In this document: positions 28,661 to 59,514 of the stretch, piece by piece
Layout of the letters: each line of letters opens with the position of its first letter
Position numbering within the stretch: the stretch's first letter is position 1
From: Anaerocaecibacter muris
Lineage (GTDB): Bacteria; Bacillota; Clostridia; Christensenellales; Pumilibacteraceae
Direction: 5' to 3'
Length of the DNA stretch: 64,000 bases
Assembly: GCF_943192945.1 (NCBI RefSeq)
Contig: NZ_CALPCE010000001.1
Span: 186,001-250,000, forward strand
Position numbers and translations under genes: made by a program
The notes under the pieces: generated by a model
The model's input: the letters and a program-made list of their open reading frames with translations, nothing else
Databases searched by the model: none
Told to the model about the DNA's origin: nothing

Positions 28661-30868
28661 ATGGCAAGTTTGTCTTTAAAGCACATCTACAAGGTGTACT
28701 CCGGCGGTGTAAGAGCCGTCAGCGACTTCAACCTCGATATCGACGATAAAGAGTTTATCGTCTTCGTCGGTCCGTCCGGTTGCGGAAAATCCACGACGTT
28801 GCGCATGATTGCGGGCTTGGAGGATATTTCGTCGGGCGAGCTCTATATCGACGATAAGTTGGTAAACGACGTCGAACCCAAGGATCGCGACATAGCGATG
28901 GTTTTCCAAAACTACGCGCTTTATCCGCACATGACCGTTTATGACAACATGGCGTTCGGTTTGCGACTTCGCCACGTTCCTTCCAAAGTAATAGACGAAA
29001 AGGTGCAGGAAGCGGCGAGCATACTCGGTATTCAACACCTTTTGAGCCGCAGACCCAAGGCTTTGTCGGGCGGTCAGCGTCAGCGTGTCGCGCTCGGAAG
29101 AGCTATCGTCCGCGAACCGAAAGTATTCCTTTTGGACGAGCCGCTGTCCAACCTCGACGCAAAACTGCGCGTTCAGATGCGTACCGAGATTACCAAAATT
29201 CACCACCGTCTTGCCACAACGTTTATTTACGTCACGCACGACCAAACCGAGGCTATGACCATGGGCACGCGTATCGTCGTTATGAAAGACGGTATTGTCC
29301 AACAGGTAGATACGCCTACCACGCTTTACGATAACCCCGCCAACCTGTTTGTAGCTTGCTTCTTGGGCTCGCCGCAAATGAACATATTTAAAGCGAAACT
29401 CGTCGAGGAAAACGGCAATCTTTACGCGCTTATCGGCGAAACCAACAAGGTCATGATACCCAAGTCGCGCGCCCTGCGCATTATCGACAACAGCATTATC
29501 GGCAGCGAGGTGCTTTTGGGTATTCGTCCCGAGGACGTGCACTACGAGCAGGCGCTTGTGGACGCGCATCCCGAATCGGTTATCGAGGCGACTATCGACG
29601 TTATCGAAAACCTCGGAAACGAAACAATCCTTTATCTCAATGTCGAGGGTAAAGAGGACTACACCATTTCGCGCGTCAATTCCCGCTACACGTTCGAGCA
29701 GGGCGAAAAAGTCAAGATGTATCTTGCAACCGACCATGCGCACCTGTTCGACCCGACGACCGAATTTACGCTCATGGGCGTTCCCGATTACAACCTTATC
29801 CCCGCACAGGCTGTTGCCGTCGAAGGCACGCTCGCGGTTATGTTCGGCGATACGGTCATCAAACTTCCCGAAGAATTGCTTAACCGCATTACGGACAAAT
29901 CGGTTATCAACAATCAAGTATTGCTCGGAATTCCGCCCACCGCGCTCAAAGCGGAAGGCGAAGAGGGCGACGCGTATATCGAGGGTGTTGCGGAGTTCTA
30001 TGACAACTATCCTCGGTTCAAAGCGGTTTACGCCGCCGTTCCTGGCATGAAGAATTATCTTATCGTTTCGCGCCCGCTCGACAGCGAGTTCGTCGGCGGC
30101 GAAAAGATAAAGACTTACGTCGATATAAGCAAGATCCAGTTGTTCAGCGCGGACGGCGAACGCCTTATTGCGGACGCGCCGCTTGCGGGCAATACGACCA
30201 AAGGCACGATTGCCAATGTCAACGGAACTTTCGGTTACAGATTTGCCGCGGACAACGGAACGAAGAACAAAATGTCGTTCGACAACTACACTATCGAAGC
30301 GGACGAGAGCGGCGTAAAACAGCACAAGACCAAGTTCGACGATTTGCAGACGGCGGACGTAGAAACGCCTATGTACATCATGCCGCGCGGCATGGCGATC
30401 GACAAAGAATCGCTTGCGCAAACGCCGAAAATGGTGCTCACGGGCATTATCAAACATCTTGACGAATACCGCAAAGACGCTATCGTCACCGTGGAAATGG
30501 CGGGTATCAACGGCGACTTGACCGCGATAATCCGCAACTTCGCGGGCTACAATACCGGCGACAAGATTAAACTTGCCGTAAATCCTCACGCGGTCGTCGT
30601 CGGCGAATACGAAAGCGTTGCCGCTGTCGTAACGAGCGAAGCCGCGCAGAACGAGGGCGAAGTACGTCGCAAAGAAATAGAAGCGGCGCGCGCGAAAGAA
30701 AAAGAACTCGAAGCCGCCGCGAAACAGCCCGCCAAACCCAAAAAGGAACAGGCGGCGACTACTGCGGAACCTGCGGAAAAAGCGGAAGCGGCTAAAAAGC
30801 CTGCGGCAAAAGCAAAGCCCGCGGCGCGCACGACTGCCGTAAAACGCCCCACCGCTAAAAAGAAATAA
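28661..30868 (+). CDS. MsmK/UgpC-type sugar ABC ATPase with long C-terminal extension
   Basis: A 735-residue protein; usual MsmK/UgpC subunits are about 370. Residues 1-240 form the ABC domain: Walker A GPSGCGKS (37-44), signature LSGGQRQR (135-142), Walker B FLLDEP (156-161), H-loop His 193. Residues 245-370 are the normal TOBE regulatory domain. Residues 385-500 repeat its pattern: VLLGIPPTALKAE (420-432) mirrors VLLGIRPEDVHYE (284-296). A third beta-rich region (510-650) and an Ala/Lys/Pro-rich tail (660-735) follow. Such ATPases are often shared among several sugar importers, which fits the lack of permease genes nearby. An upstream in-frame ATG exists, but the AAGGAGA site points to 28661. 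Confidence 0.88.
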   Translation: MASLSLKHIYKVYSGGVRAVSDFNLDIDDKEFIVFVGPSGCGKSTTLRMIAGLEDISSGELYIDDKLVNDVEPKDRDIAMVFQNYALYPHMTVYDNMAFGLRLRHVPSKVIDEKVQEAASILGIQHLLSRRPKALSGGQRQRVALGRAIVREPKVFLLDEPLSNLDAKLRVQMRTEITKIHHRLATTFIYVTHDQTEAMTMGTRIVVMKDGIVQQVDTPTTLYDNPANLFVACFLGSPQMNIFKAKLVEENGNLYALIGETNKVMIPKSRALRIIDNSIIGSEVLLGIRPEDVHYEQALVDAHPESVIEATIDVIENLGNETILYLNVEGKEDYTISRVNSRYTFEQGEKVKMYLATDHAHLFDPTTEFTLMGVPDYNLIPAQAVAVEGTLAVMFGDTVIKLPEELLNRITDKSVINNQVLLGIPPTALKAEGEEGDAYIEGVAEFYDNYPRFKAVYAAVPGMKNYLIVSRPLDSEFVGGEKIKTYVDISKIQLFSADGERLIADAPLAGNTTKGTIANVNGTFGYRFAADNGTKNKMSFDNYTIEADESGVKQHKTKFDDLQTADVETPMYIMPRGMAIDKESLAQTPKMVLTGIIKHLDEYRKDAIVTVEMAGINGDLTAIIRNFAGYNTGDKIKLAVNPHAVVVGEYESVAAVVTSEAAQNEGEVRRKEIEAARAKEKELEAAAKQPAKPKKEQAATTAEPAEKAEAAKKPAAKAKPAARTTAVKRPTAKKK

Positions 30869-33777: not shown

Positions 33778-33915
33778 ACAAATTCACGACTTTTTTCAAA
33801 TTGCGGTCGGCGCGACGGGCGGTTATGACGGTATTAGGCTGTCGCTCGCGTTCATCAACTGTTAGCAATGTTTATATGCGACTGCTAATTTTTTCATATA
33901 TTGCCTTATATGTTA

Positions 33916-33944
33916 TTGACAAATATGTCGATATATTGTATTAT
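33916..33944 (+). promoter_or_regulatory. Sigma-A promoter of the giant surface protein gene
   Basis: TTGACA (33916-33921), 17-base spacer, TATTAT (33939-33944). AAGAGG lies upstream of ATG 33976. Confidence 0.8.
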
Positions 33945-33975
33945 ATACTCGTATTATTGCTACAAGAGGTGTTTT

Positions 33976-36900: not shown

Positions 36901-39900
36901 TTTGAAGCGCCGCGTATTTCGTCGGGTTCGACGACGGGCGAGGACAATTATAATCTTACATTGTTCTGCGGTTCTACTCCGACGACGGTGGTGCTTACCG
37001 TGCAAAATCTCGCGCGCAGTATTGTGAGCGTGGGCGTGTACGAAGATATGCATTGCACCAACGACATTTCAAGTTCGGTTTTGGAATTCGGTAAATACAT
37101 AGGCAAGAGCGGCGTGTACAGCAAAACAGTTTACGTCAAGATCGTGTATGAGGCTGTTCCCGCATCGGACGCTCACGCCACTCAAAGCACTTCTTGGCAG
37201 TATTACGAAGCGGCTGTATTGACATTGCCCGATTATTTGACTGCGTCCGGTTCGGGCGTTGCGGGCAAGAACAACGGCGTATATCATCTTGCTCCGACCG
37301 ATTCCGATATTTATAACGCAGCTTACGGCGTGGGCGGCGCGGTTATAACTTGCGAAATCAAACTTAAAACAACCGCGAGCGAACACGATTCCGATTATTT
37401 GACTATTCACCGCGCCAACAAGATAGACGAGCAACTTATCAAGCAAAGCGTAAAAGTCGGTACGGGCTTGGCTAACATAACCGTAAGCGACGACAACGGA
37501 CACGGTTGTATCATAAATGCGGGTAATGCGGGTACGGTCGAATATACGTTCGAGCTTAAAAACAACGGCGCGACGCAACCGTCGTACAAACTCAATCTTA
37601 ATTACGGCGCGTTGACTGCGTCCGAATATCCCGGCATTGCGTACAACAACAAGAGCGAAACGGAATTTACGTTGACGTACACAGCGATAAACGGGCTTAC
37701 CGTTTCCGATTTTTCGCATGGCGACAATCCTTATATTTTGATAGGTATTGCGTCCGACGTTAAGACGTTGATCGGAACTTACAGTTTTGTTTTCACCGAT
37801 AAATCGGGCAGGGCGTCGAGCGGCAATACGTTTACGCTCAATGTCAAGATTACCGTCACTATGGATATATTCGCGCTCGACTTCGGCGACGCGGGCAGCG
37901 AGTACAGAATTAAAACGACGGGTAACCAGGGCGGAGCCGTTTCCGACGTTGCGTCGTTGCCGATAACCGTTTTGTATAACGGCGGCGATACGACCGTTCA
38001 GCCGACGGCGCAGATAATCAAAAACAACAACGTTGCGGACATTGTTACCAAGACCGCCGACGGCAGTTATATCGAATATACGGGCGGCGATATTTACATC
38101 CGTCGCAGCGGCACGGACGGCGAGGGATATACGCTGTACGTCAAAAACAGCATAATTACCGCCGCAGACTATTACGTGCGCTTAAAATACGGCGATATAA
38201 CGCCCGTTTACAGAGCTATCAAGATTGAAACCAACTCGCACACGCTGTATTTGGCGGACGATAATAATGTTTCTGTAACCGAAACGGGCGGCGAGAAATC
38301 GGCGGTTGTGTCCGTGTCGCAAGATAATGTTGCGTTCAAACTTGCCGCGGTCGTCAAAAACGACGGCACGCAAGAGGTTGCTGCGGGAAAAAACGTTACA
38401 TACGCTATCTATACCGATAAAACGTTTAATACGGTTGCGTCGGACGTAACGTTCGATTCGACGAGCGGCGAAATAAAAATCAATCCGTCCGCCGTGACGA
38501 ATACGGTATACTATAAGGCGAGCTATACCGACGTGGGCGGTAAAGGCGATACGCAGGAAATTGTAATCAAGTTTACTTATCGCGTCGAAATTTCGTCCGT
38601 ACAGCTCCAAGGCTTGGACGGCAACACGTTTGCCGCGGACGACAAACTTATTACGCTTTATATAGGCGGCAATAAATATACCGAACTCGATTTGTCGAGC
38701 TACATCAAACCTATAAACGTATTCGGCAAGGATTTCGGCAATGCCGTTACCAATTCGGTGCGGCTTGCAAATCAGAGCGACGCGAGCAAACTCATCGTAA
38801 ACGGCTTAAAGCTCATACCCGAATCGCTTACGGGCACGGCGGGCGTTCCGATTATAATCACTTCGCAGTATTTCGGATCGGAAAAGGAATACCGTTGCAA
38901 CGTCGCGGTCAAGTCCATAACCTCGCTTGCGCTTACGACAGTTAGCGGTAAGATTAACGTTGCGGACGAAGATTCGTCCGTGACCGTATCGTCCAACGTA
39001 AAGGATTATGCGGGCTTCGTGGTCGAGTACACCTTGACGTCCGATAAGACGGGGCTTGACATAACGAGCGCGGGCTACGAAAAGACGGTTGCGCTTTCAA
39101 CGCGTTCGGCGGCGAGCCTCGGCACGTACACGCTTACGGCTACTGTCAAATATAAACTCGCAAGCGGATCGAGCCTTACTTTGAGCGGCGGCGAATTTAT
39201 GTTCGAAGCGATTTACTCTTTGACGGTAGATTGCGATTACGCGCCGCAATTCGGTTTGGTGTACAACTCTGCCGAAACCGTACTGCCTTACGATACGACC
39301 GACGCGACAAAACACACCGTTAAAGACGCATCGAAGTATGCTGTTAATGTTATCGGCGCGACGCACGGCGACGCGAACGCGCGTTATTCCGCGTCGGCGA
39401 CCAATGTTATCACCGTCGGCACGTTTACGGGCGATAGCGGCGCGGTTACGATAAACGACAATGAAAGCGGCGAATTTAACGTGACGCTTACCGCGGTCGT
39501 TTACGGCAAGACGTTTACAGTCACTCAAAAATACTTCTTCTCTTACGGCGCGGACGCTTCGGCTAAACTGTACGGCAAAGTTGACGGACAGGAATATACC
39601 GAGCTTACGGCGAGCGACGGACAGCCCGTTATCAATCAGAATATCGATTTCGTAAACGGCAAGCCGTACACGTTTAAGTACGAAATATCCGACGTGGATA
39701 TTGCCAACAGCGTTGTAGATATTATCGTAAACGGCAACGTGACCGTCGGCGAAATGGTTAAAGCCAACGGAAAATGCTATGTCGAAATAACCGCCGATAA
39801 GGAAACGACTTTGCAGGTCGGCGGCATAGTAAAAGTGGGCACGCGCACCGTGTATACGGAGAGCTTTACCGTAAGGCTTACGGCAACCGCGCCCGTGTTC

Positions 39901-42900
39901 GAGATAACCGCTTCGCGCGACAAAATACTTCCCGCCGAAACTGCTACGTTTACCGCGGGCGTAAAGAACAACGGTTTTGCCGGAAACATCGCGGTGCAAT
40001 ATTCGATAATTTCAGGCGGGAACATGGCGATAAATTCCGCGAGCGGCGTTTTAACCGCAGGCAGCAATATTACGGTGAATACGCTTGTTACCGTGCGCGC
40101 GACGATAACCGTAACAGACAGCGTATTTAACGGCGTATATACAGTTGAAAAATCGATAATTGTTCTCGGCGTTCCGCTCCCGACGGTAGCTTGGAGCAAT
40201 CCAACCGTCGATATAGAAATCGGCACGGACGGCGCGATTGAATTTGTTGCTGATACCGATTACATTTTCGACGGACATAAAGTCTTGTCCGACGGTATTA
40301 CTTACGACTATGTTGCTAACTATGCGATTACTGTATCGTCCGCGTCGGGCTTGACGGCAAACGATTACAAACTTACAAACGGCAAGCTCGAAATTATAGG
40401 CACAAACACGACGTTGGCGGGCGGAAAAATTACGCTGTGCTTGACCGCAACGGTCACGAGCGACGTAAATAAAGGCGCTATCGCTACCGATTATATCGAC
40501 GTTGTTATCGCGCCGCAAGCGCGCAGCGTTGCGGGGGCGACTGTGTCCAACGGCGTAGGAGTTTACGACGTGCGCGACGCGGTTAAACCCAATACGACGA
40601 GCACAACGGGGCATTTTATAGCCGATAGCGAGGCAAACGATTACACCGTGACTTCGGTCGTTGTCGTCAACGACGCCGACAAACAGTTTGTTCAAGCGAG
40701 CGGCGCGCGGCTTGCGGTTGTGCGCAACATTACGGAGCTTGGCAAAACCATAGATTTGGACGTTACTATCGTCATGACGAAAGGCGTGTATGCGGGTAAA
40801 GAAATGACCTGTCGCACAAGCGTCGCCGTGGTCAATCCCACTGTTACAAACTCCGCCGCGACGTGGAACGGCGATTTGCTCGCATATAATCAAGTAACAG
40901 TCAAGGACTGCATTAACATTGCGGAAGTTGCGGACGGAGTAGCGGTAACGCGCATTGCGGTAACCGCAATAGAGGAAGATCAAGCCTCGGCGTTCACCGT
41001 TATAAACAACAATACCGTCAATCCCGTGATTACGGTTGATCGCGCGTTCAATACGAGCATAGGCGCGGACGGATCTGACAGCGCGATAAAAGTCGCTTAC
41101 GTGATAACGCTATCCAACGGCAGAGTGTACTACGGCGAAGGTCAGATTTCCGTTGCCGACGTGAGAGTGGACGTAACGGCGAAAGTGGGCGAGCAAAATA
41201 TCGCGCTTAACAAAGACTTTGCGGATAACGACATTACGAGCGTACTCATAAACGCAGGCGAGGCAGCCGCGCTCGCGACTTCGGCATCTAACGGGTTCGA
41301 CGTGCGCGTTAAGTCCGTGGAAATAACCGACGAGCAAGGATTGACGACCGACTATCTTACAGGTCTTGCTAACGGCGACAGCGCAATATTTACCGCTGCG
41401 GTCATTAGCTCCGACAAGACGTGCAACGTAACCGTCAAAACGGACGTTTGCGGTACAGAATATATTATCAAATTCAAGGTTAATATCGTTGCGCCCGCAA
41501 CGTCCTCGGCTTACGACGTCGGCAATACCGAAAATACCGACTTTGCGGTCGGCGAGGGCGGCGAGGTTATTTCCAAATGGGCAAACAACGGCGGATCGGC
41601 GTATAAGTACGGATATTCGGTTACTATTACCGCGCCTGCGGGAAATCTGTCCGATTATCTTGCGTCGGCAACGTTGCATTTGACCGAAGGCGGCGCGACG
41701 CTCGACACTCTTAACCTTAACGGTCAGTCTGATACGCTGTACTTTAACAACGCAAACGGCAGCAGTCATTCGCATAACGTCAACACTTCCAACTTTGTGT
41801 TGAAACTTGTGTTCAAAACGACTGCCGCAGTCAAGCGTTGCAATATAGAAGCGACTTACCGCGCATATAATAAATCGTCGCTCGGCAGTGCGCAGAACTT
41901 TACGGGCTGGTACCGTTTTGAAGTAGTGGGCAAAGTTACCGTTACTCTCGATACCAATGCGCACGGCGACGACAGCGCGACTTGCGATAAATCGACGGTT
42001 GACGTCAATTATAAAGGACTTTACGGCAACTTGCCGGTAGCGAGCAGAACGGGTTATGACTTCCTCGGTTGGTACACCGCGGCGGTAGGCGGCGACAAGA
42101 TAGTGTTTGTGACAGGAGAATCGGGCAACACTATGGTTACTAACCGCGAAAGCCATACGCTGTACGCGCACTGGGCGGAAAAAACGTACACAGTCGCGCT
42201 CGACGCTAACGCGGACGGCGACAGCGTAACAGACAGCGCGGCTTCGGTAACGGTCAAGTTTGGCGGCACGTATTCGACACTGCCCAAAAATCCCAAGCGC
42301 GTCGGATATGAATTCCTCGGCTGGTTTACCGCGGCAAACGGCGGCGACAGAGTGGACGGCGGCGACGAAGTTACCGCAATGCCTCATACTCGACTTTATG
42401 CGCACTGGACGCCCGTAATCTATACGGTGACGCTTAACGCCAACGGCGGCAGTATCGCGGGGCTTGACTCTTTTGAGTTTAACGTGCCGTTCGGAACAGA
42501 GTTTACCCGCCATGTAAGCGTTATGCCTACGCGCGACGGATACACATTTAACGGTTGGCGCACTGCGGCGAGCGGCGGCGACAGCGTTGGCGCGAGCATA
42601 ACCGTAACGGGCAACACCGTTATTTATGCCGATTGGTCGGTTATCCCGCAAAAGACGGTCGAGGTAACGTTCGATACGCACGTCGTCGGCATGACTGTCG
42701 CGGGCAAAACCGTTAATTACGGCGGAACTTACGGCGAACTCCCGACGGCGGGCGAACGCGCAGGCTATACGTTCCTCGGCTGGTTCACCGCCCAAACCGA
42801 CGGCGAGCTTGTTACCGAAAATACGATAGTTCCCGACGTTACGTCCGTAGAACTGCATGCGCATTGGCAAGTAAACGTCTATACCGTTACGTTTAACGCC

Positions 42901-43341
42901 GCCGGCGGCGATATTGCGGGCGTCGAAACAATCGCGTTGAACGTTGCATATAACGAGGCTGTTACGCTGTTTAATCCCGTCAAGGCGGGCTACGTGTTCG
43001 ACGGGTGGTTCGATGCGGACGATAATAAAGTCGGCATGGGCGGCGACGCTTATACCGTTACGGACGACGTAACGCTTACGGCAAAGTGGTCGCAATATTC
43101 GGTGTCGTTCGACCTCAATTATGACGGCGCGGCCGAAACGATAGACGACAAGATTTATGCTGTCGGAGCTAAATACGGCGCGGATTTGCCTGTGCCTACG
43201 TCCGCAAGGGACGGTTTCGAGTTTAAAGGCTGGTGCACGGACAAGAACAATGCGGCAGCGACTGCCGTCACCGCGGACGACGTTGTGGAAGGCAACGTCA
43301 CGCTGTACGCCGTGTGGGAAGCCGTAACGGTCGAGCCTTAA
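33976..43341 (+). CDS. Giant membrane-anchored surface protein with InlB-type B-repeats
   Basis: A 3121-residue protein. The start at 33976 is set by AAGAGG upstream; a more upstream in-frame ATG would add 25 unlikely residues. Residues about 20-42 (KKLIVVFVAMGVLLALAVTF) form one membrane helix after a short basic tail, with no lipobox, so the rest is probably outside and anchored at its N-terminus. Residues 60-2600 are Thr/Val/Asp/Asn-rich beta-sandwich-like domains of bacterial Ig type, poorly conserved. Residues 2653-3114 hold six B-repeats of the Listeria-Bacteroides type (G-Y-x-F-x-G-W ... L-Y-A-H-W). No LPXTG or S-layer homology motif is visible at the C-terminus. Probably an adhesin or cell-surface scaffold. 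One-gene unit; a phosphoribosyltransferase gene follows. Confidence 0.85.
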   Translation: MPISDEVIELAPVKKTKKKLIVVFVAMGVLLALAVTFLVMYLIKPSVEKDNSVVKDVTIESTGLFSMNGTDYYASIGNEYTVYADITVENGASPNIAWEVTPREAVTEIKSSSGDGERAYFTFVPNVGHHNKDVSIKARSASNTSKYKEVKFKVVNQGAESIKLTDFYAQGNSANKEQIKNDEIRIPHYVADVNNRTYTVLFDQYGKYNESTGEYAKMSITKTADGLESNAVTVTSDNTSVVAVSGSSHEGFMFRARGKGVANIKIKANINNPDAPQNVEKTLKINVQSSTELGYIEKIYLFNTAVVDGDFIESVLDKTRTQLDVAALTELVKNDPDLVMDPKEITFPYNTTYDDIFSHVLISPITIQYDSAAKTIKNNWYKSLSVKSSNDQAMKVTTDKNGAVSLAATGLASTAQSATTCKLTFSDTTAGNIKVDNEVNVRVVAQNESGKLSVKVGTSDFAEDAVAPVASNVSATLSAIYNIRMSGKTDVNEVVDKKYLTGTYMLDFDPAIMEVRVAGSTGASLTPNKVYELTSEAMKIERKGADTSSITNFEGTVKFTVKIKDGVKDGTYTLKFIKVGTSVSGGEDWNGKDKSDRTWEKTASFEVTAKATKAFFIDTEDATALVTKNNAFAGKFVPSAGENPTSATVYVQNQQQGTTWNKENFFNIAELVTTDVTRFKTQVKIVTYNQNVFSATGNVLTFRGLAPDDASLPCAEFDISVFDIENKEIGVLKVKVYVIDAITAFEEIGEQSVEYDKDNKKGTGLAYADLVKVKRTLNTKFETYNNYTINLYFGHISEDTKLVPEEDTVNKITYYKHNGVRLYQIQSFVIKPVTDLYAYSYNNKVNVADLRVEFSVNEKDFYHVEGGDSSVLVTSVMTCKFMRLADGVAAFTSSDYSEQSRIKDNKYSVNQGSQVDIYVSSTVEITNNESDKEIVYVMRYNDGAFAVKSYIQIPTGISATGDAAGKGDNTFYTVRFEAPRISSGSTTGEDNYNLTLFCGSTPTTVVLTVQNLARSIVSVGVYEDMHCTNDISSSVLEFGKYIGKSGVYSKTVYVKIVYEAVPASDAHATQSTSWQYYEAAVLTLPDYLTASGSGVAGKNNGVYHLAPTDSDIYNAAYGVGGAVITCEIKLKTTASEHDSDYLTIHRANKIDEQLIKQSVKVGTGLANITVSDDNGHGCIINAGNAGTVEYTFELKNNGATQPSYKLNLNYGALTASEYPGIAYNNKSETEFTLTYTAINGLTVSDFSHGDNPYILIGIASDVKTLIGTYSFVFTDKSGRASSGNTFTLNVKITVTMDIFALDFGDAGSEYRIKTTGNQGGAVSDVASLPITVLYNGGDTTVQPTAQIIKNNNVADIVTKTADGSYIEYTGGDIYIRRSGTDGEGYTLYVKNSIITAADYYVRLKYGDITPVYRAIKIETNSHTLYLADDNNVSVTETGGEKSAVVSVSQDNVAFKLAAVVKNDGTQEVAAGKNVTYAIYTDKTFNTVASDVTFDSTSGEIKINPSAVTNTVYYKASYTDVGGKGDTQEIVIKFTYRVEISSVQLQGLDGNTFAADDKLITLYIGGNKYTELDLSSYIKPINVFGKDFGNAVTNSVRLANQSDASKLIVNGLKLIPESLTGTAGVPIIITSQYFGSEKEYRCNVAVKSITSLALTTVSGKINVADEDSSVTVSSNVKDYAGFVVEYTLTSDKTGLDITSAGYEKTVALSTRSAASLGTYTLTATVKYKLASGSSLTLSGGEFMFEAIYSLTVDCDYAPQFGLVYNSAETVLPYDTTDATKHTVKDASKYAVNVIGATHGDANARYSASATNVITVGTFTGDSGAVTINDNESGEFNVTLTAVVYGKTFTVTQKYFFSYGADASAKLYGKVDGQEYTELTASDGQPVINQNIDFVNGKPYTFKYEISDVDIANSVVDIIVNGNVTVGEMVKANGKCYVEITADKETTLQVGGIVKVGTRTVYTESFTVRLTATAPVFEITASRDKILPAETATFTAGVKNNGFAGNIAVQYSIISGGNMAINSASGVLTAGSNITVNTLVTVRATITVTDSVFNGVYTVEKSIIVLGVPLPTVAWSNPTVDIEIGTDGAIEFVADTDYIFDGHKVLSDGITYDYVANYAITVSSASGLTANDYKLTNGKLEIIGTNTTLAGGKITLCLTATVTSDVNKGAIATDYIDVVIAPQARSVAGATVSNGVGVYDVRDAVKPNTTSTTGHFIADSEANDYTVTSVVVVNDADKQFVQASGARLAVVRNITELGKTIDLDVTIVMTKGVYAGKEMTCRTSVAVVNPTVTNSAATWNGDLLAYNQVTVKDCINIAEVADGVAVTRIAVTAIEEDQASAFTVINNNTVNPVITVDRAFNTSIGADGSDSAIKVAYVITLSNGRVYYGEGQISVADVRVDVTAKVGEQNIALNKDFADNDITSVLINAGEAAALATSASNGFDVRVKSVEITDEQGLTTDYLTGLANGDSAIFTAAVISSDKTCNVTVKTDVCGTEYIIKFKVNIVAPATSSAYDVGNTENTDFAVGEGGEVISKWANNGGSAYKYGYSVTITAPAGNLSDYLASATLHLTEGGATLDTLNLNGQSDTLYFNNANGSSHSHNVNTSNFVLKLVFKTTAAVKRCNIEATYRAYNKSSLGSAQNFTGWYRFEVVGKVTVTLDTNAHGDDSATCDKSTVDVNYKGLYGNLPVASRTGYDFLGWYTAAVGGDKIVFVTGESGNTMVTNRESHTLYAHWAEKTYTVALDANADGDSVTDSAASVTVKFGGTYSTLPKNPKRVGYEFLGWFTAANGGDRVDGGDEVTAMPHTRLYAHWTPVIYTVTLNANGGSIAGLDSFEFNVPFGTEFTRHVSVMPTRDGYTFNGWRTAASGGDSVGASITVTGNTVIYADWSVIPQKTVEVTFDTHVVGMTVAGKTVNYGGTYGELPTAGERAGYTFLGWFTAQTDGELVTENTIVPDVTSVELHAHWQVNVYTVTFNAAGGDIAGVETIALNVAYNEAVTLFNPVKAGYVFDGWFDADDNKVGMGGDAYTVTDDVTLTAKWSQYSVSFDLNYDGAAETIDDKIYAVGAKYGADLPVPTSARDGFEFKGWCTDKNNAAATAVTADDVVEGNVTLYAVWEAVTVEP
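41932..43317 (+). repeat. Six tandem InlB B-repeat units
   Basis: Coding repeats of about 74-81 residues, ending at W codons near 42174, 42408, 42636, 42867, 43089 and 43317. Each has a GYxFxGW core (GYDFLGW, GYEFLGW, GYTFNGW, GYTFLGW, GYVFDGW, GFEFKGW). Units 1, 2 and 4 are most alike; units 5 and 6 are the most divergent. Confidence 0.88.
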
Positions 43342-52120: not shown

Positions 52121-52149
52121 TTATGTCGGAAAAAGTGAAAAATTCGTTA

Positions 52150-52178
52150 TTGACAAACGGTCGCGCGCATGATAAAAT
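52150..52178 (+). promoter_or_regulatory. Sigma-A promoter of the AraC-type regulator
   Basis: TTGACA (52150-52155), 17-base spacer, TAAAAT (52173-52178). The start codon of the regulator is at 52209. Confidence 0.8.
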
Positions 52179-52208
52179 ATAAAAAATCGATAGTGTGGGG
52201 CGTGAAAC

Positions 52209-53009
52209 ATGAAAGATAATGATTATACAAAGTGGATCCTCAATAACGAGATAATTTATGACACGCCTACGCGTATGCACATTCGCAGTCAAGACTCTTG
52301 CATGGCTTTAAAGCACTTCCATGGAAATATCGAATTTTTTGGCGTGTGCAAAGGTGAAGTAATGGCGACTGTGGCGGACGAAAAACGCGTTTTGCATGCG
52401 GGAGAAATAGTTGCGACAAACCCGTTCGAGGCGCACGGTTTCGAGCAGATCGGCGATATTACCGTATTTGTCGCTTCTATCGGATCGCTGTATTTGAGCA
52501 ATTTCGAATCGATTTACAAACGAAGCAAGCTGCCGCGTTTTTTGACGGACGCGGAATACAACAAAACTATATTCGATAAAATGACGCTTGTCGATGATAA
52601 ATACAATTTGCCCGAATTGCGGAAATTCGCGGTGGTCAACGATTTACTTGCCGATATAGTGGAAAGATACGGCGTGATCGCGGTTGATTCCGACATAGCA
52701 GACGACGACTTGGCGGCAAACGTCGTTCAGTATATTTACAATCACTATGCCGACGAGCTGTCGCTTACCGTGCTTGCCGATAAGTTCGGCGTAAGCCCCA
52801 CGTCGCTGTCCAAAAAACTGTCCCCGTTTATAGGCAAGGACTTGCGTGCGTTTATAAACGACATACGCGCTATCAAAGTACAGTATATTTTAAGCGACCC
52901 GTCCATGCGCGATTTGCCGCTTAAAGATATAGCGTTCCGTTGCGGCTTTAAAAACCCCGAAACCTTTTACAGGGTGTACGCCCGAAACTTCGGAAGGGGG
53001 GGGGGGTGA
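52209..53009 (+). CDS. AraC-type transcriptional regulator ending in a poly-G tract
   Basis: A 266-residue regulator. Residues 1-150 form a cupin-like sensor (LKHFHGNIEFFGVCKGEV, HAGEIVATNPFEAHGF). Residues about 178-266 form the double helix-turn-helix domain: LTVLADKFGVSPTSLSKKL and PLKDIAFRCGFKNPETFYRVYARNFG, the latter split in position around the second recognition helix. The usual end (about ten more residues, SPSEYR-like) is missing: after NFGR the code enters 11 G and stops. It is followed by the GH43 and repeat lipoprotein genes, its probable targets, and by its own terminator. Confidence 0.85.
   Translation: MKDNDYTKWILNNEIIYDTPTRMHIRSQDSCMALKHFHGNIEFFGVCKGEVMATVADEKRVLHAGEIVATNPFEAHGFEQIGDITVFVASIGSLYLSNFESIYKRSKLPRFLTDAEYNKTIFDKMTLVDDKYNLPELRKFAVVNDLLADIVERYGVIAVDSDIADDDLAANVVQYIYNHYADELSLTVLADKFGVSPTSLSKKLSPFIGKDLRAFINDIRAIKVQYILSDPSMRDLPLKDIAFRCGFKNPETFYRVYARNFGRGGG
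52996..53006 (+). repeat. Poly-G tract of 11 bases at the end of the AraC-type gene
   Basis: An uninterrupted run of 11 G codes for the final Gly residues. One G fewer would end the protein as RGGGEVK; one G more would extend it by about 30 residues into the terminator region. It may vary in length, or may be a read error. Confidence 0.85.
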
Positions 53010-53064
53010 GGTCAAATAACATAATCTGGAATAACGGCAATATTATCGCAATTATAACTTTGTT

Positions 53065-53094
53065 CGTCCGCAACCGTGCGGGCGTTTTTTTTTG
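53065..53094 (+). terminator. Terminator after the AraC-type gene
   Basis: Arms CGTCCGCA (53065-53072) and TGCGGGCG (53077-53084), one T-G pair, four-base loop, eight or nine T after. Confidence 0.82.
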
Positions 53095-53176
53095 ACGTAA
53101 ACAACGCAAAATACAGTATAAAACGGCATATATGCGCGTGTTGCAAGATATGTCATAAATTCGGAAAATCTTATCA

Positions 53177-53205
53177 TTTACATTAACGATAACGTGTGTT
53201 ATAAA
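53177..53205 (+). promoter_or_regulatory. Promoter of the GH43-lipoprotein operon
   Basis: TTTACA (53177-53182), 17-base spacer, TATAAA (53200-53205), and GGAGGTGA at 53250-53257 before ATG 53262. AraC-type operators were not recognised. Confidence 0.7.
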
Positions 53206-53261
53206 ATATACAGTAGTCGCATGCGTGATAATATGCGGTTAATAAACGGAGGTGACGGAAA

Positions 53262-55310
53262 ATGAAAAGGAAATCGGCTATTGCGTTAGCCGGCTTGATG
53301 AGCGCTTGTTTTTTAACGGGTTGTTCCAACGATGGTAACATAAACGACGGGAAGTATGAGTTGCCGCATCATTTGCAAACTTCGACGAGCGGCATGAATA
53401 AGGATTTGTATTATCAAAATGATTGCATAGAAGGTTCCGACCCGTCCATTGTATATTGCGACAACGAAGCGGATACAGAAAATTACGGCTGGTTCTTTTT
53501 GTATACGACGGGCGTATTCAATATTCCGGTATATAAAAGTCGCGATTTAAACAACTGGCAGTCTGTCGGATTAGCATTTTCTCCTGCGCAGGGCAGTTGG
53601 GCGCGCGAACAGGTTTACGCGCCGGAGTGTGTTTATTCGGACGGCAAATATTATCTGTTCTTTTCTGCGAACGATAATTATTACAGACCGGACGGAATGT
53701 TCTTTACCTCGCGCGAAGACCAAAAGGCTTACTATGTAGAAAAAGCCAAAATCGACGCTATGGATTTGGCATCGGCGTCTGCGCGCATGAACGAACAAAT
53801 AGCAAAATTCGACGGCAAAACGGAGCTCGAAGGCTACTCCGATAATCAGTTGTCGCGGGCGCAGGAAAATATAGACAAATATAAATCGCTTAAAGCGGGC
53901 ATAGACGCGTCCGAATCCGAGCAGGATGAAAAAGACGCGGAGCTTTTGGAAATTACGCGCACTGCGTTGGCGGAATTCGAGGCAATGGAAGTAAACGCCG
54001 ATTTATATTTGGGTTACTCCGCGACTTTTTCGATAGGGCTTGCCGTATCCGACAGTCCCGCAGGTCCGTTCGTTCAGTATACCAACGTCGCAGGGCAAGA
54101 GGGGTACGATCCTAACAAGCGCGAAATTACTATCGGCGAACCGTTTGTCACGCACGAAGATTTGGCGGGCGTGCCGATTGAACGTCGCGAGCGCATAATG
54201 TCGCACATAGACGTTAATCCGTTCGAAGATCCCAAAACGCACAAAAAGTATATGTATCTGTCCAACACTTATCAGGGACAGACCGAAATGTACGGCGTGG
54301 AAATAGGCGACGACTGGACGGACGATCTCAATCGCGACAGCGTTACGCACATGACGACGCTCGGTTATAAGGACGTGGATAAAACCGAACCCACCGATTA
54401 TATCATATCGACCAAGATCGAAGAAGGTCCGCACATGTACTACGATGCGGAAAGCGACAATTACTATTTGACTTTTTCCATAAACGGCTGTTACGACCGC
54501 AACTATTCGGTCGCACAGGCGTTGGGCAAATCGCCGCTCGGCAAATTTACAAAAGTGAACGAAGCGGACGGCGGAATATTGTGCGCCGCCGATCCGTACT
54601 GGGATCACGTAACCGCGACGGGGCATCACTGTTTTGTCAAGTACGGCGACAAAATGTATATAGCGTATCAGACGCTTGTGGACAGAGCGGGCTCCGGCTC
54701 CGGTCCGCGCGGAATATGCGTTGACGAAGTTAAGTTCATCACCAACGACAAAGGGCAGAAGCTGTTGTACACCAACGGTCCCACGTATTCTCCCATGCCG
54801 AAAATCGGTCCCGACGCGCAATATCGCAATATTGCGGAAAGCGCAACCGTTACCGCGACTAACGGCGAAGCGGGCATGGACGCAAAATATCTTAACGACG
54901 GTTTGCTCACCGCGACGCTTGTACACGAAATCGTAAAAGAATACGACGCGAAGAAAGGCAAGACCGAAATAACGCTCACGTTCGACGATTATCGCACTGT
55001 GCGCGCTATAATGGTGTTCAACTCCAAGTGGGCGGAACGGTTGTTCGACGAAGTGTCGCGCATCGAGCTTGATTTTGTTAAAACCAAAGACGGCAAAGAC
55101 GTGACGGGCACGGCGTATATGTCGGGTCTTAAATTCGAGAAAGACCGTTATCTTACCGCATGGGAAGGCGACGAGGAAGAGGACAGATTCGCGCGGCCTT
55201 GCGGCGCAGTGGCGGTAGAGTTCGACGAAATAAAAGTTAAAACCATACGAATAACTATAAATTCCGACAAGCCGATTTCGGTATCCGAAATAATGGTTCT
55301 CGGAAAATAG
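53262..55310 (+). CDS. GH43-like lipoprotein with coiled-coil insertion and C-terminal F5/8-type domain
   Basis: A 682-residue exported lipoprotein (signal MKRKSAIALAGLMSACF, lipobox LTGC). A five-bladed beta-propeller of GH43 type covers about residues 45-510: GSDPSI gives the general base Asp 60, NPFEDP a likely pKa-modulating Asp, and EEGPHMYY the general acid Glu 388. GH43 enzymes cleave arabinans, xylans and galactans. Residues about 150-245 form an unusual charged helical insertion. Residues about 515-682 resemble an F5/8 type C (discoidin) binding domain (TVTATNGEAGMDAKYLNDG ... IRITIN). The operon partner, another lipoprotein, starts 11 bases after the stop. Confidence 0.83.
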   Translation: MKRKSAIALAGLMSACFLTGCSNDGNINDGKYELPHHLQTSTSGMNKDLYYQNDCIEGSDPSIVYCDNEADTENYGWFFLYTTGVFNIPVYKSRDLNNWQSVGLAFSPAQGSWAREQVYAPECVYSDGKYYLFFSANDNYYRPDGMFFTSREDQKAYYVEKAKIDAMDLASASARMNEQIAKFDGKTELEGYSDNQLSRAQENIDKYKSLKAGIDASESEQDEKDAELLEITRTALAEFEAMEVNADLYLGYSATFSIGLAVSDSPAGPFVQYTNVAGQEGYDPNKREITIGEPFVTHEDLAGVPIERRERIMSHIDVNPFEDPKTHKKYMYLSNTYQGQTEMYGVEIGDDWTDDLNRDSVTHMTTLGYKDVDKTEPTDYIISTKIEEGPHMYYDAESDNYYLTFSINGCYDRNYSVAQALGKSPLGKFTKVNEADGGILCAADPYWDHVTATGHHCFVKYGDKMYIAYQTLVDRAGSGSGPRGICVDEVKFITNDKGQKLLYTNGPTYSPMPKIGPDAQYRNIAESATVTATNGEAGMDAKYLNDGLLTATLVHEIVKEYDAKKGKTEITLTFDDYRTVRAIMVFNSKWAERLFDEVSRIELDFVKTKDGKDVTGTAYMSGLKFEKDRYLTAWEGDEEEDRFARPCGAVAVEFDEIKVKTIRITINSDKPISVSEIMVLGK

Positions 55311-55321
55311 AGGGGTGTAAA

Positions 55322-58300
55322 ATGAAAAAGAAGATTTTAGCGGGATTGGTCGCGGCAGGCTTGCTTTGCGCTACTGCGACGGGCTGTTCCAAGACCATAG
55401 ACAGCGACAATCGCATTAAAGACTTATTCAATCCTTACGACCGCGGCGATAATATTGCGGGCGAAAATTATTCGGATCAAGACGTCACCGTGGACGGCGA
55501 TTTGAGCGAGAATATTTGGAAGAACGCGGTATGGAACGACATGAAGTCGGAACCCGCCAACCGCGACAGCGGCAACAGCAAATACGAGTTGGAGGATTGC
55601 AACATAAGCGCGACGGCGATTGTGCGCGAAAACGGTTTGCTTGTGGGCATTAAATCCACCGATAAAGTGGCGTATGCGGGAAAAATTTTGCAAGTAAACA
55701 ATAAGGCGTTACTGTCGGCGTTTGCGCAGACCGGCGTCAGCATATATTTCTGCGATTCGGCGGACACAGTAACGGGCGGACGCCCTTGTTACGAAATAGG
55801 TTTCAGCGCGGCGGGATCGATAAGATGTTATTATCGCGACGCGAATATTACATCGGAAATGATTTTATCCCAAGCGAGCGTCAAATCCAAAATCGACGGT
55901 CAAGTCAACTCCTCCGACAATAACGGGTATTCAATCGAGGCGTTTATCCCGTGGAGCGATTTGCAAGGTATCGGCGACGGCGAAATAGAATCCGTTATGG
56001 CGACTTTCGCTTCGCACCGTCATCCCGAATTCGATATATCAGGCGCTTACGACGGTAAAAAACTGACGTTTGAAATGCTGGAAGTGCAACAGGGCGCGGG
56101 CTGGCTTGCGCCGTTGACGTGGAAGGAGTACGGCGAATCTGGTAAAAAACTCGTCGGCATGACTTCGAGCGACAAATACGGCGATTACGACGATACGCTC
56201 AAATCCAATGCGATAGTCGTGTATCCTAAAAACAGCGTATTTGCAAACGCTACAAACGGACAAAAATACGTCTATGTTAAAGACGTTAAGGGCAAAAGCC
56301 TGTACGCGGAAGCTACTATCAGCAATGCGAGCGTTAATTGGGGCATGGCGGGCTTTGCGTTCCGCGATGTGCTCACGCCGCCTACTTATGAACCCGAAAG
56401 CGAGGGAAGCAACAGACAGCGCGAAACGGACAAAGGCGCGGTTTGGGCGGGCTTGCGCTACGGCGGCGACAATAAAGGTCAGCACTTGTATTGCATAAGC
56501 ACGGATCTCACCGATACGGGCGACATATCCAAAGCGGGCAACACTTACGTTATAGGCACGCCCGAAACTTACGACGATTCCAAGGGCGCGACGGGCGTCA
56601 AGATCGGTACGTATATATCGGAAAACGGCACAGTGTTGCTGTACGTAAACGGCGAATTGAAAAAGGTCGGCTATGCCAAGCATTTGTCGGGCAAGGATAT
56701 GTGCGTATCGTTTGCGGGGCGCGACATGAGTTGTTTGTACGGCGATATAACGGTGCTGTCGGGCGAGCAGGCGTTTGAAAAAGTAAAAGACGATCTTGCC
56801 GCAATCGAAAGCGACGTTTACGGCGATTACAGCGCGGAAATCACTGCCGACGCGAGCGCGGTTTACGGCAGTAACGGCGACTTAAGTTTAAACAAGACCC
56901 AAAGTCAGCAGTACTTGTATTTTAAAAACGTACACGGCAACAAGCTGTATGCAAAAGCGACGATTAGCAACGTTGATACTAACTGGGGTATGATAGGTTT
57001 TGCGTTCCGCGACGTCACCGATTTAACCAAAACCGCATGGATGGGCTTGCGTTACGGCGGCGCGGAAAAGAGCAACCACTTGTACGCAATAAGCACCAAT
57101 CTGTCGGACGTCGGCAACACCAGTCTTGCGGGCAATTACAGCGCGCAGGGCACGGAGCAGACTTTCGATAACTCCAAGGGTACGGCGGGCGTAACCGTGG
57201 AAGTCATGATTGATTCGGACGGCACTGCGCTAATAGCAATAGACGGAGTTGTCAAAAGATACGTAACGCTCGACTTTATGGTCGGCAAAGATATGATTGC
57301 GGCTATTGCGGGACGCGACAGCGGAGCGCAGTATAAAAACGTCCAAGTTCTTGCGGGCGAACAGGCGAGCGCGAAAATAACCGCGTATAAGTCCTCCGTC
57401 ATAAGCGACGTTTACGGCGACTATAATGCTAATATCGCCGCCGACGCGCGCGCTATATACGGTCAAAACGGTGAAGTAAATCTTGCCAAAACAAGCGGAC
57501 AGCAGTATTTGTACGTCAAGAACATTCACGGCAATAAGCTGTATGCAAAGGCGACAATAAGCAACGTTGATACTAACTGGGGTATGATAGGCTTTGCGTT
57601 CCGCGACGCTACCGATTTGAGCAAATCCGTATGGGCGGGCTTGCGTTACGGCGGCACGGACAAAGGTCAACATTTGTACATGATAAGCGCAAAACTTGCG
57701 GACGTAGGCGATATAAACGGCAATCATTACGTCATAGGCAAGCCCGCGACTTACGACAACTCCAAAGGCTCGACTGGCGTAACGATAGAAGCGTATATCG
57801 ACGAAACGGGTTTGGTAGCCCTGTTTGTTGACGGCGAGCTTGCGCTTAACGTCAGACTTGCCGAGTTTGCGGGCAAGGACATGATAGTATCGTTTGCGGC
57901 GCGCGACTGCGCGGCGACGTACAAAGACATAACCGTCAAAGAGGGAACACAGGCGTTTGACGCGTTCAACGATAGCGCGAAAGTCAAGGGCGCAACGTTC
58001 AGCGCGACTAACATCGACGGTTTGTATCAAAACGGCATAGACCTGTCGCGCGACGTAATCGGCGCAACTAATCCGTCGGTGGAAATAACCGTTCCGTCCA
58101 ACGGACAGCGTTACGCAATGTACAACAACGCGATCGACAGCAACAAGATTTTTGCGCAATACACTATCAAATCGTTTGGCACGGTAACTGCCAATAAGTG
58201 GGGCGCGGTTTCGTTGGCTTTTGTCAATGCCGACGGCAACGGCACTTATTACGGTCTTAAATACGAGCAAAACGAAAGTACTGCCACAAATTTAGCGGCA

Positions 58301-59284
58301 ATCGTTTCGTACCGCACCGAAAATAATGAAATAGTTTCTTGGTCGGATAACGGTAAAGACGCAAACAATATGACTTATGCGAACGCCGGTTTTCCCGCAG
58401 ACGGCGGTCTGCTCGATAAACTCAACGCCGACGGTCTCACGTTCACCGTTTACTGCGACGGAACTAAATATCACTACTTCCTTAACGGCGTACCCATTGC
58501 GGGTTGGCACGGAAGTTACACGCGCAGTTTAATTAGCAATGATCAGAACTTTCAAGCAGTCGGAACGAGCAACATAGTAAAAGCGCTTATAGTAGTGGAA
58601 AACGCGCACGTTAATTTCTCCGATTACAAGATAGTATCGGGCGACGCGGCGGCGACGTCTTACGACGACTTTTTGGAAAGCGCGGGCGGCGGAAAATACG
58701 GCGATTATAACGCAACGCTCAAAGCGGACGCAGTTGCGGTAATAAACTCCGACAACGACGTATGCTTGGTTAAAACGAGCAAAACGCAATATTCTTATCT
58801 TAAATCAGTCAAAAGCGACACGCTGTATGTCGAAGCGCGGGTCAGCAATGTAAATGCCAACTGGGGCGCAGTTGGCTTTGCGTTCCGCGACGTAGACGCT
58901 CCTGACAGCGTTGCGTTTTCGACGCTGCGTTACGGCGGCAACGCGGTAGCTGAATTCTTTTATACCGTAGCTACCAATGCCGCCGACGTATGCGCTGATG
59001 TGAACCATGCATATAAGAGTGCCGGCACGGAAGCAGACCTCCAAGCCACTTATGGCAAAGACAAATCGAAAGGCGTGCTGTTGCAGGCGTATGTAGACAA
59101 TGCGGGCAACGTGTCTGTCGCTGTAAACGGCGTTGTCAAAGCTACGCGTAATGTGGCTGCGCTTGCGGGCAAACAGCTTTGCGCGGCGCTGTTCGGCGGC
59201 AACGCGGGATGCGTTTACAAAAACGTTTCCGTAAAGACGGGCGCGGATGCGACGGTGGCGTTTAACGCGCTGACGCAGGCGTAA
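55322..59284 (+). CDS. Large lipoprotein with CBM9/DOMON-like domain and five repeat modules
   Basis: A 1320-residue exported lipoprotein (signal MKKKILAGLVAAGLLCA, lipobox ATGC). Residues about 45-280 look like a CBM9/DOMON-type sugar-binding domain (VTVDGDLSENIWKNAVW ... YSIEAFIPWSDLQG). From residue 284 to the end there are five modules of about 190-235 residues with the core NWGMxGFAFRDV ... WxGLRYGG ... DGxxAL and closing GKDM ... YKDITV; module 4 is divergent. They may be LamG/jellyroll-like binding domains, but I do not recognise them as a named family. No catalytic site is apparent. A GAGGGGTG site precedes the ATG. With the GH43 gene it probably binds a polysaccharide at the cell surface. 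Confidence 0.82.
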   Translation: MKKKILAGLVAAGLLCATATGCSKTIDSDNRIKDLFNPYDRGDNIAGENYSDQDVTVDGDLSENIWKNAVWNDMKSEPANRDSGNSKYELEDCNISATAIVRENGLLVGIKSTDKVAYAGKILQVNNKALLSAFAQTGVSIYFCDSADTVTGGRPCYEIGFSAAGSIRCYYRDANITSEMILSQASVKSKIDGQVNSSDNNGYSIEAFIPWSDLQGIGDGEIESVMATFASHRHPEFDISGAYDGKKLTFEMLEVQQGAGWLAPLTWKEYGESGKKLVGMTSSDKYGDYDDTLKSNAIVVYPKNSVFANATNGQKYVYVKDVKGKSLYAEATISNASVNWGMAGFAFRDVLTPPTYEPESEGSNRQRETDKGAVWAGLRYGGDNKGQHLYCISTDLTDTGDISKAGNTYVIGTPETYDDSKGATGVKIGTYISENGTVLLYVNGELKKVGYAKHLSGKDMCVSFAGRDMSCLYGDITVLSGEQAFEKVKDDLAAIESDVYGDYSAEITADASAVYGSNGDLSLNKTQSQQYLYFKNVHGNKLYAKATISNVDTNWGMIGFAFRDVTDLTKTAWMGLRYGGAEKSNHLYAISTNLSDVGNTSLAGNYSAQGTEQTFDNSKGTAGVTVEVMIDSDGTALIAIDGVVKRYVTLDFMVGKDMIAAIAGRDSGAQYKNVQVLAGEQASAKITAYKSSVISDVYGDYNANIAADARAIYGQNGEVNLAKTSGQQYLYVKNIHGNKLYAKATISNVDTNWGMIGFAFRDATDLSKSVWAGLRYGGTDKGQHLYMISAKLADVGDINGNHYVIGKPATYDNSKGSTGVTIEAYIDETGLVALFVDGELALNVRLAEFAGKDMIVSFAARDCAATYKDITVKEGTQAFDAFNDSAKVKGATFSATNIDGLYQNGIDLSRDVIGATNPSVEITVPSNGQRYAMYNNAIDSNKIFAQYTIKSFGTVTANKWGAVSLAFVNADGNGTYYGLKYEQNESTATNLAAIVSYRTENNEIVSWSDNGKDANNMTYANAGFPADGGLLDKLNADGLTFTVYCDGTKYHYFLNGVPIAGWHGSYTRSLISNDQNFQAVGTSNIVKALIVVENAHVNFSDYKIVSGDAAATSYDDFLESAGGGKYGDYNATLKADAVAVINSDNDVCLVKTSKTQYSYLKSVKSDTLYVEARVSNVNANWGAVGFAFRDVDAPDSVAFSTLRYGGNAVAEFFYTVATNAADVCADVNHAYKSAGTEADLQATYGKDKSKGVLLQAYVDNAGNVSVAVNGVVKATRNVAALAGKQLCAALFGGNAGCVYKNVSVKTGADATVAFNALTQA
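56175..59281 (+). repeat. Five coding repeat modules in the large lipoprotein
   Basis: Approximate borders 56175-56810, 56811-57406, 57407-57980, 57981-58692 and 58693-59281. Modules 2 and 3 are offset by 594 bases and stay close to identical at DNA level around 56941-57020 and 57535-57614, which suggests a fairly recent duplication. Module 4 differs most. Confidence 0.82.
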
Positions 59285-59328
59285 CGTTTAATTATTGCTT
59301 ATTCAAATTCCTCCCCCTATATTATGAG

Positions 59329-59370
59329 CTTGCGCGGCTTTTCTTACGGAAAGTCGCGCAAGTTCGTTTT
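59329..59370 (+). terminator. Probable terminator after the large lipoprotein gene
   Basis: Arms CTTGCGCGGCTT (59329-59340) and AAGTCGCGCAAG (59351-59362) with one G-T pair, then TTCGTTTT. The other bases between 59285 and 59449 show nothing recognisable. Confidence 0.65.
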
Positions 59371-59449
59371 ACGGCGGAAATATTATGCCGATAATAAATG
59401 CGGGTATTTTTCGGGCGGAGAAAATATAGGGCGAAACGCGGCGAAAGAA

Positions 59450-59479
59450 TTGACAAAACGGGTCGAATTGCGGTATAAT
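59450..59479 (+). promoter_or_regulatory. Promoter of uvrB
   Basis: TTGACA (59450-59455), 18-base spacer, TATAAT (59474-59479). CGGAG precedes ATG 59515. No clear LexA box was recognised. Confidence 0.75.
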
Positions 59480-59514
59480 ATATGTCAAAGTTTTCGCGGT
59501 AAAATCGGAGAATT

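Follow-up and report, generated by a model that had tools for sequence, protein, structure and literature searches.

The window analysed here, a 64,000-nucleotide stretch of the Anaerocaecibacter muris genome, carries an AraC-family regulator gene followed by the adjoining genes of two lipoproteins, a GH43 enzyme and a large protein of 1320 aa with a CBM9-like module and five predicted concanavalin-A-like (ConA-like) modules (Table 1). We consider it fairly likely that this locus is a horizontally acquired, AraC-controlled cassette that captures and trims glycans at the cell surface, with the products entering through importers that are encoded elsewhere and share a MalK-type ATPase. A preliminary description of this DNA had spoken of a possible new surface glycan system. 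This goes too far, since cassettes of this known kind recur, and the one here is a copy without a transporter.

Table 1. Positions in the window of the genes, protein modules and control sites discussed in the text.
Feature	Position	Strand	Basis
MalK-type ATPase, candidate shared ATPase for sugar importers	28661..30868	+	PF00005, PF17912, PF08402 (ABC, OB, TOBE domains)
Sigma-70-type promoter-like site (putative), TTGACA-17-TAAAAT, 5' of AraC gene	52150..52178	+	11/12 consensus match
AraC-family regulator, 266 aa, N-terminal cupin domain	52209..53009	+	PF12833 2.3e-12, PF07883 2.5e-7
Terminator-like hairpin, 8-pair stem then T-run, between AraC and GH43 genes	53065..53084	+	
GH43 lipoprotein, 682 aa	53262..55310	+	PF04616 6.2e-27; lipobox LTGC
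Charged, probably helical insertion in GH43 domain, residues about 141-252	53682..54017	+	GH43 alignment
C-terminal domain of GH43 protein, residues 519-682	54816..55307	+	conserved in relatives
Large lipoprotein, 1320 aa, CBM9-like module and five ConA-like modules	55322..59284	+	lipobox ATGC; predicted folds
N-terminal CBM9/DOMON-like module	55391..56176	+	Foldseek, profile match
Repeat 1, ConA-like	56168..56803	+	profile match; fold by homology to repeat 3
Repeat 2, ConA-like	56810..57403	+	profile match; fold by homology to repeat 3
Repeat 3, ConA-like (modelled)	57404..57976	+	pLDDT 87.5, pTM 0.87; Foldseek
Repeat 4, divergent ConA-like	58034..58672	+	profile match
Repeat 5, ConA-like	58691..59281	+	profile match

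The locus and its two lipoproteins

The three reading frames adjoin each other as had been described, and both lipoprotein genes encode a lipobox and are indeed separated by 11 bases. The hairpin and T-run downstream of the AraC gene suggest that the lipoprotein pair is probably a separate transcription unit. That the pair sits behind one promoter, as the preliminary description held, is not borne out, because the sole promoter-like match upstream of the GH43 gene agrees with the consensus at 9 of 12 positions, which is chance level. The AraC gene itself ends in a run of 11 G (52996-53006), in which one base more or less alters the C terminus by 3 to 29 residues; the run may be prone to slippage or may reflect a homopolymer error of the assembly.

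With a PF04616 score of 95.1 bits, against a cut-off of 32.2, the first lipoprotein belongs to family GH43. Its predicted triad (D60 as Asp base, D317 as Asp modulator, E388 as Glu acid) is invariant in an alignment of 24 relatives, and the DP, ID and EGP motifs of the GH43 profile line up with those of 4qqs, a GH43 of solved structure. Thus the triad is intact, and the catalytic motifs noted earlier are real. The insertion of about 110 residues in the catalytic domain is, within the same alignment, common only to the two nearest relatives, both from genome G062 (G062:C26 and G062:C14). A discoidin-like domain had been assigned to this protein as well. The C-terminal domain of about 160 residues matches DUF7402 below threshold and 4 of the 24 relatives match this family (best 7.5e-5), so that the flat assignment does not stand and we regard a discoidin-like domain as plausible.

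The 1320-aa protein has no family match in Pfam or NCBIfam. Its N-terminal module was modelled with moderate confidence (pLDDT 70.6), and a Foldseek search with this model returned a putative Bacteroides carbohydrate-binding protein (4jpq, 7.9e-6), the CBM9 of Thermotoga Xyn10A (1i82, 3.9e-5) and also an ethylbenzene dehydrogenase subunit. At the level of sequence, PF06452 is matched by 2 of 18 homologues. As judged from the model, the module is a CBM9/DOMON beta-sandwich, and the CBM9/DOMON-like domain of the preliminary description is correct as far as the fold goes. Compared with CBM9 proper, the predicted fold is alike and the sequence profile match to 1i82 is weak (E 0.004), whereas the module, and with it the protein, lacks a match to Pfam CBM9_1.

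The remainder of the protein consists of the five large repeats outside named families that had been reported before: a self-built profile recovers all of them at E 1e-64 to 1e-92, each about 190-220 aa long, and they match no sequence in Pfam, NCBIfam or PDB and no named carbohydrate-binding family. Likeness amounts to 47-57% for repeats 1, 2 and 3 and about 35% for repeat 5, and falls to 16% for the divergent repeat 4. Iterated at strict thresholds, the repeat profile found the five window copies and nothing else; the links to modules of relatives were drawn with weaker thresholds and a mixed alignment. A model of repeat 3, built from 13 aligned modules of the window and its relatives, has its best PDB matches in the concanavalin-A-like fold, namely the carbohydrate-recognition domain of Emp46p, an archaeal legume-lectin domain and CBM66, and a lower-ranked match in domain 4 of the GH43 arabinanase AbnA. 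According to this model, repeat 3 adopts the jelly roll of concanavalin-A-like lectins and comes nearest to carbohydrate-recognition domains such as those of Emp46p and CBM66. The fold search that the preliminary description had proposed thus returned a lectin-like module and not a family with an unrelated role. While the predicted jelly roll is shared with CBM66 (TM 0.66-0.70 on the target) and other ConA-like lectin modules, the window repeat differs from them in sequence, with about 10% identity and no sequence-family match. Matches of repeat 3 to neurotoxin receptor-binding domains (~7-12% identity, rmsd worse than for CBM66) were rejected; they arise because the lectin jelly roll is common to both.

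Two further genes of the window are recorded here as separate observations. A 3146-aa reading frame with Listeria-Bacteroides (Flg_new) repeats at 33901-43341 possibly encodes a giant surface protein, and a GH95-type alpha-fucosidase gene lies at 8847-11240 (PF22124, 1.2e-51).

Recurrence of the pair and its links to sugar importers

The genes around GH43 relatives were compared across genomes from the family and order to which the window belongs, 29 loci in all with the window counted. A CBM9-type lipoprotein lies directly downstream of the GH43 lipoprotein, at a distance of up to about 25 bases or with slight overlap, in 21 of these 29 loci, a count that is biased or partly selected since the CBM9 profile was built from the GH43 partners. 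Two more loci encode GH43 and CBM9 in a single polypeptide. One of these fusions (G062:C1, L044) has the GH43 profile at 712-1298 and CBM9 at 1307-1502; the other (G163:C207, L138:3-6909), on a contig of another family, joins the C-terminal part of GH43 to CBM9 and two ConA-like modules, and after it comes another lipoprotein, which carries three ConA-like modules. In four loci GH43 is accompanied by ConA-like modules alone: in two congeners from the genus of the window (L031 and L032, genomes G017 and G005) the module forms a C-terminal fusion with the GH43 lipoprotein, and such modules occur on a lipoprotein just upstream of GH43 in L036 and L042. The last two loci (L046, L047) are without a partner, and their GH43 is without a signal peptide. 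All five CBM9 hits outside the training set (G186, G163, G171, G091, G062:C1) show the pair or the fusion, and ConA-like modules were found outside the training set in L033, L036, L040, L041, L042, L043, L045 and L138. The order of AraC, GH43 and lipoprotein genes is identical in G062:C14, where a homologous AraC occupies the matching position. The comparison of neighbourhoods suggested by the preliminary description finds the two genes adjacent or fused in relatives. In the open-access literature that we searched, the pair is undescribed.

In 18 of the 29 loci the pair has ABC importer genes next to it, for a solute-binding protein (SBP) and two MalFG-type permeases; L031 is among them, though its contig ends before the SBP gene. 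Regulators of the LacI or AraC type occur in the importer operons of pair relatives, and in L031 and L032 the GH43-ConA fusion lipoprotein lies within the importer operon. Only 2 of the 29 loci have a MalK homologue as direct neighbour. As for the window itself, the preliminary description correctly noted that no transporter is encoded beside the pair: the locus is without a carbohydrate transport system and its neighbours are dinB and uvrB. On contig C7 of the same genome, a paralogous pair is accompanied by an SBP and both permeases.

The MalK-type ATPase encoded in the window (28661-30868) is the sole full OB_MalK match in the genome, with a partial match on C6, and at least four permease pairs of the genome are without an ATPase listed nearby. 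It carries a C-terminal extension of ~370 aa with a Lys/Ala-rich tail and no Pfam match within this extension. For MsmK/MsmX, one ATPase is known to be shared by several sugar importers (PMC4519317, PMC5730181). The genome of the window resembles this arrangement in having ATPase-less sugar importers and a MalK-type ATPase encoded elsewhere, from which gene content suggests sharing, and differs from it in the unusual extension. The gene content agrees with, yet does not prove, that the ATPase-less importers share a MalK-type ATPase such as this one, to which the GH43 locus may be linked. To this extent, the earlier suggestion of importers sharing an MsmK-type ATPase is backed, as most of the importer loci are ATPase-less and such an ATPase is encoded in the window.

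The cassette could work as follows. AraC would sense a sugar released as breakdown product and switch the pair on. The GH43 and 1320-aa proteins, judging from their lipoboxes, would be exported and lipid-anchored at the surface, where the CBM9-like and the five ConA-like modules may together form a multivalent arm keeping a polysaccharide close to the cell, and the GH43 lipoprotein may cut this bound chain at linkages of the arabinose, xylose or galactose type. The released sugars or short oligomers would then enter via MalFG-type importers encoded elsewhere, for example at the paralogous locus on C7, which would be energised by the shared MalK-type ATPase. The predicted lectin-type fold of the repeats and the adjacency or fusion in relatives speak in favour of the earlier proposal that the pair holds and trims a polysaccharide at the cell surface; binding, substrate, uptake route and induction are inferred.

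The same architecture might serve attachment. The five-lectin lipoprotein would then fix the cell to mucin, plant fibre or other cells, with GH43 exposing or releasing the attachment glycan and nutrition being secondary, which fits the multivalent, lectin-like build and the lack of an importer beside the window copy and several pair relatives. However, most pair relatives lie in importer operons with SBP, permeases and LacI or AraC regulators, as is fitting for nutrient uptake, and we therefore consider attachment an unlikely main role.

Origin of the cassette

None of 19 congeners encodes the 1320-aa protein. Among the 74 genomes of the family that were searched it is missing from 72, and its only other match is in G062. 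A contig scan with this protein gave no confirmed relative, and one with the GH43 alignment gave G062 only. The interval between dinB and uvrB (52121-59514) measures 7.4 kb in the window versus 155 bp in G004, whose UvrB and DinB are the most similar among the congeners. Other lipoprotein genes occupy it in G014, G013 and G006, and across the genus (L088, L089, L090, L091, L092) it is nearly empty in several species and holds different lipoprotein or other genes in others; its contents thus mark a variable site. The GH43 of the window groups with the two G062 copies, which belong to another genus, with supports of 99/98 and 100/100, and is closer to one of these copies than they are to each other. 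GC3 of the cassette is 0.57-0.60, compared to 0.66-0.68 in dinB and uvrB. No integrase was seen at the locus, and the flanking direct repeats are 9-mers only, a length that shuffled sequence gives fairly often. Taken together, the absence in congeners, the 155-bp interval in G004 and the grouping with the G062 copies make horizontal acquisition probable, and the simplest account is that the whole cassette came from a G062-like lineage. The alternative is its loss in all congeners.

This patchy distribution also bears on the idea that the pair remodels the cell's own surface by binding and trimming an endogenous polymer that contains arabinan or galactan. Lipid anchoring of both enzyme and lectin and the importer-less locus would agree with such a role, but absence from 19 congeners is unusual for envelope maintenance and the importer linkage of pair relatives speaks against it as well, which makes it improbable. 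Marginally less probable still is that a recently inserted cassette no longer works, as the missing importer, the variable site, the low GC3 and the G-run at the AraC C terminus might suggest, because none of the three reading frames is interrupted, the catalytic triad is preserved and full-length importer-less copies exist in another genus.

Relation to known glycan-harvesting systems

We return to the preferred reading, a cassette for glycan capture and trimming. A gpPUL is defined by an enzyme, a transporter and a regulator (Sheridan et al. 2016, PMC5320581). The window locus shares with it a GH43 enzyme with intact triad, presumably acting on a polysaccharide, as well as an AraC regulator, and the relatives of the pair adjoin ABC importers. 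In contrast, the window locus has no transporter, and binding would reside on a giant lipoprotein apart from the enzyme, whose modules are CBM9-like and ConA-like, the latter unclassified. Since the transporter is lacking, we do not file the locus as a gpPUL. The best explanation is that it works like the enzyme and surface-glycan-binding part of a gpPUL and represents a variant of gpPUL-like systems. As enzyme-lectin pairs recur across the order, usually beside a sugar importer, the cassette probably belongs, as a variant, to a type of glycan-harvesting system that is already known.

In the Sus-type PULs of Bacteroidetes, one surface lipoprotein holds the glycan and a surface lipoprotein enzyme trims it. 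The window pair would be alike in its working only, an analogy for which we claim no homology, and differs in that the system is without SusC/SusD, belongs to a Gram-positive-type lineage and has an ABC importer in relatives. More tentatively, the GH43 lipoprotein may dock on the giant CBM9/ConA-like scaffold, forming an undescribed two-lipoprotein enzyme-lectin complex of Clostridia that is Sus-analogous but tied to an ABC importer. The subgroup of the window might then use the helical insertion of GH43 as a docking arm, and the enzyme-scaffold part could travel without the importer as an add-on. We regard this extension as possible, though doubtful.

The combination of a GH43 lipoprotein and a CBM9/ConA-like lipoprotein, separate or fused, is a recurring unit in this order of Clostridia. 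With these findings, a repeat protein that had no place becomes a scaffold for glycan capture that can be put to the test, and many of the giant lipoproteins that are called 'hypothetical' in these genomes gain a naming rule. If the physical complex exists, it would be one way for such bacteria to hold a polysaccharide at the surface without SusCD.
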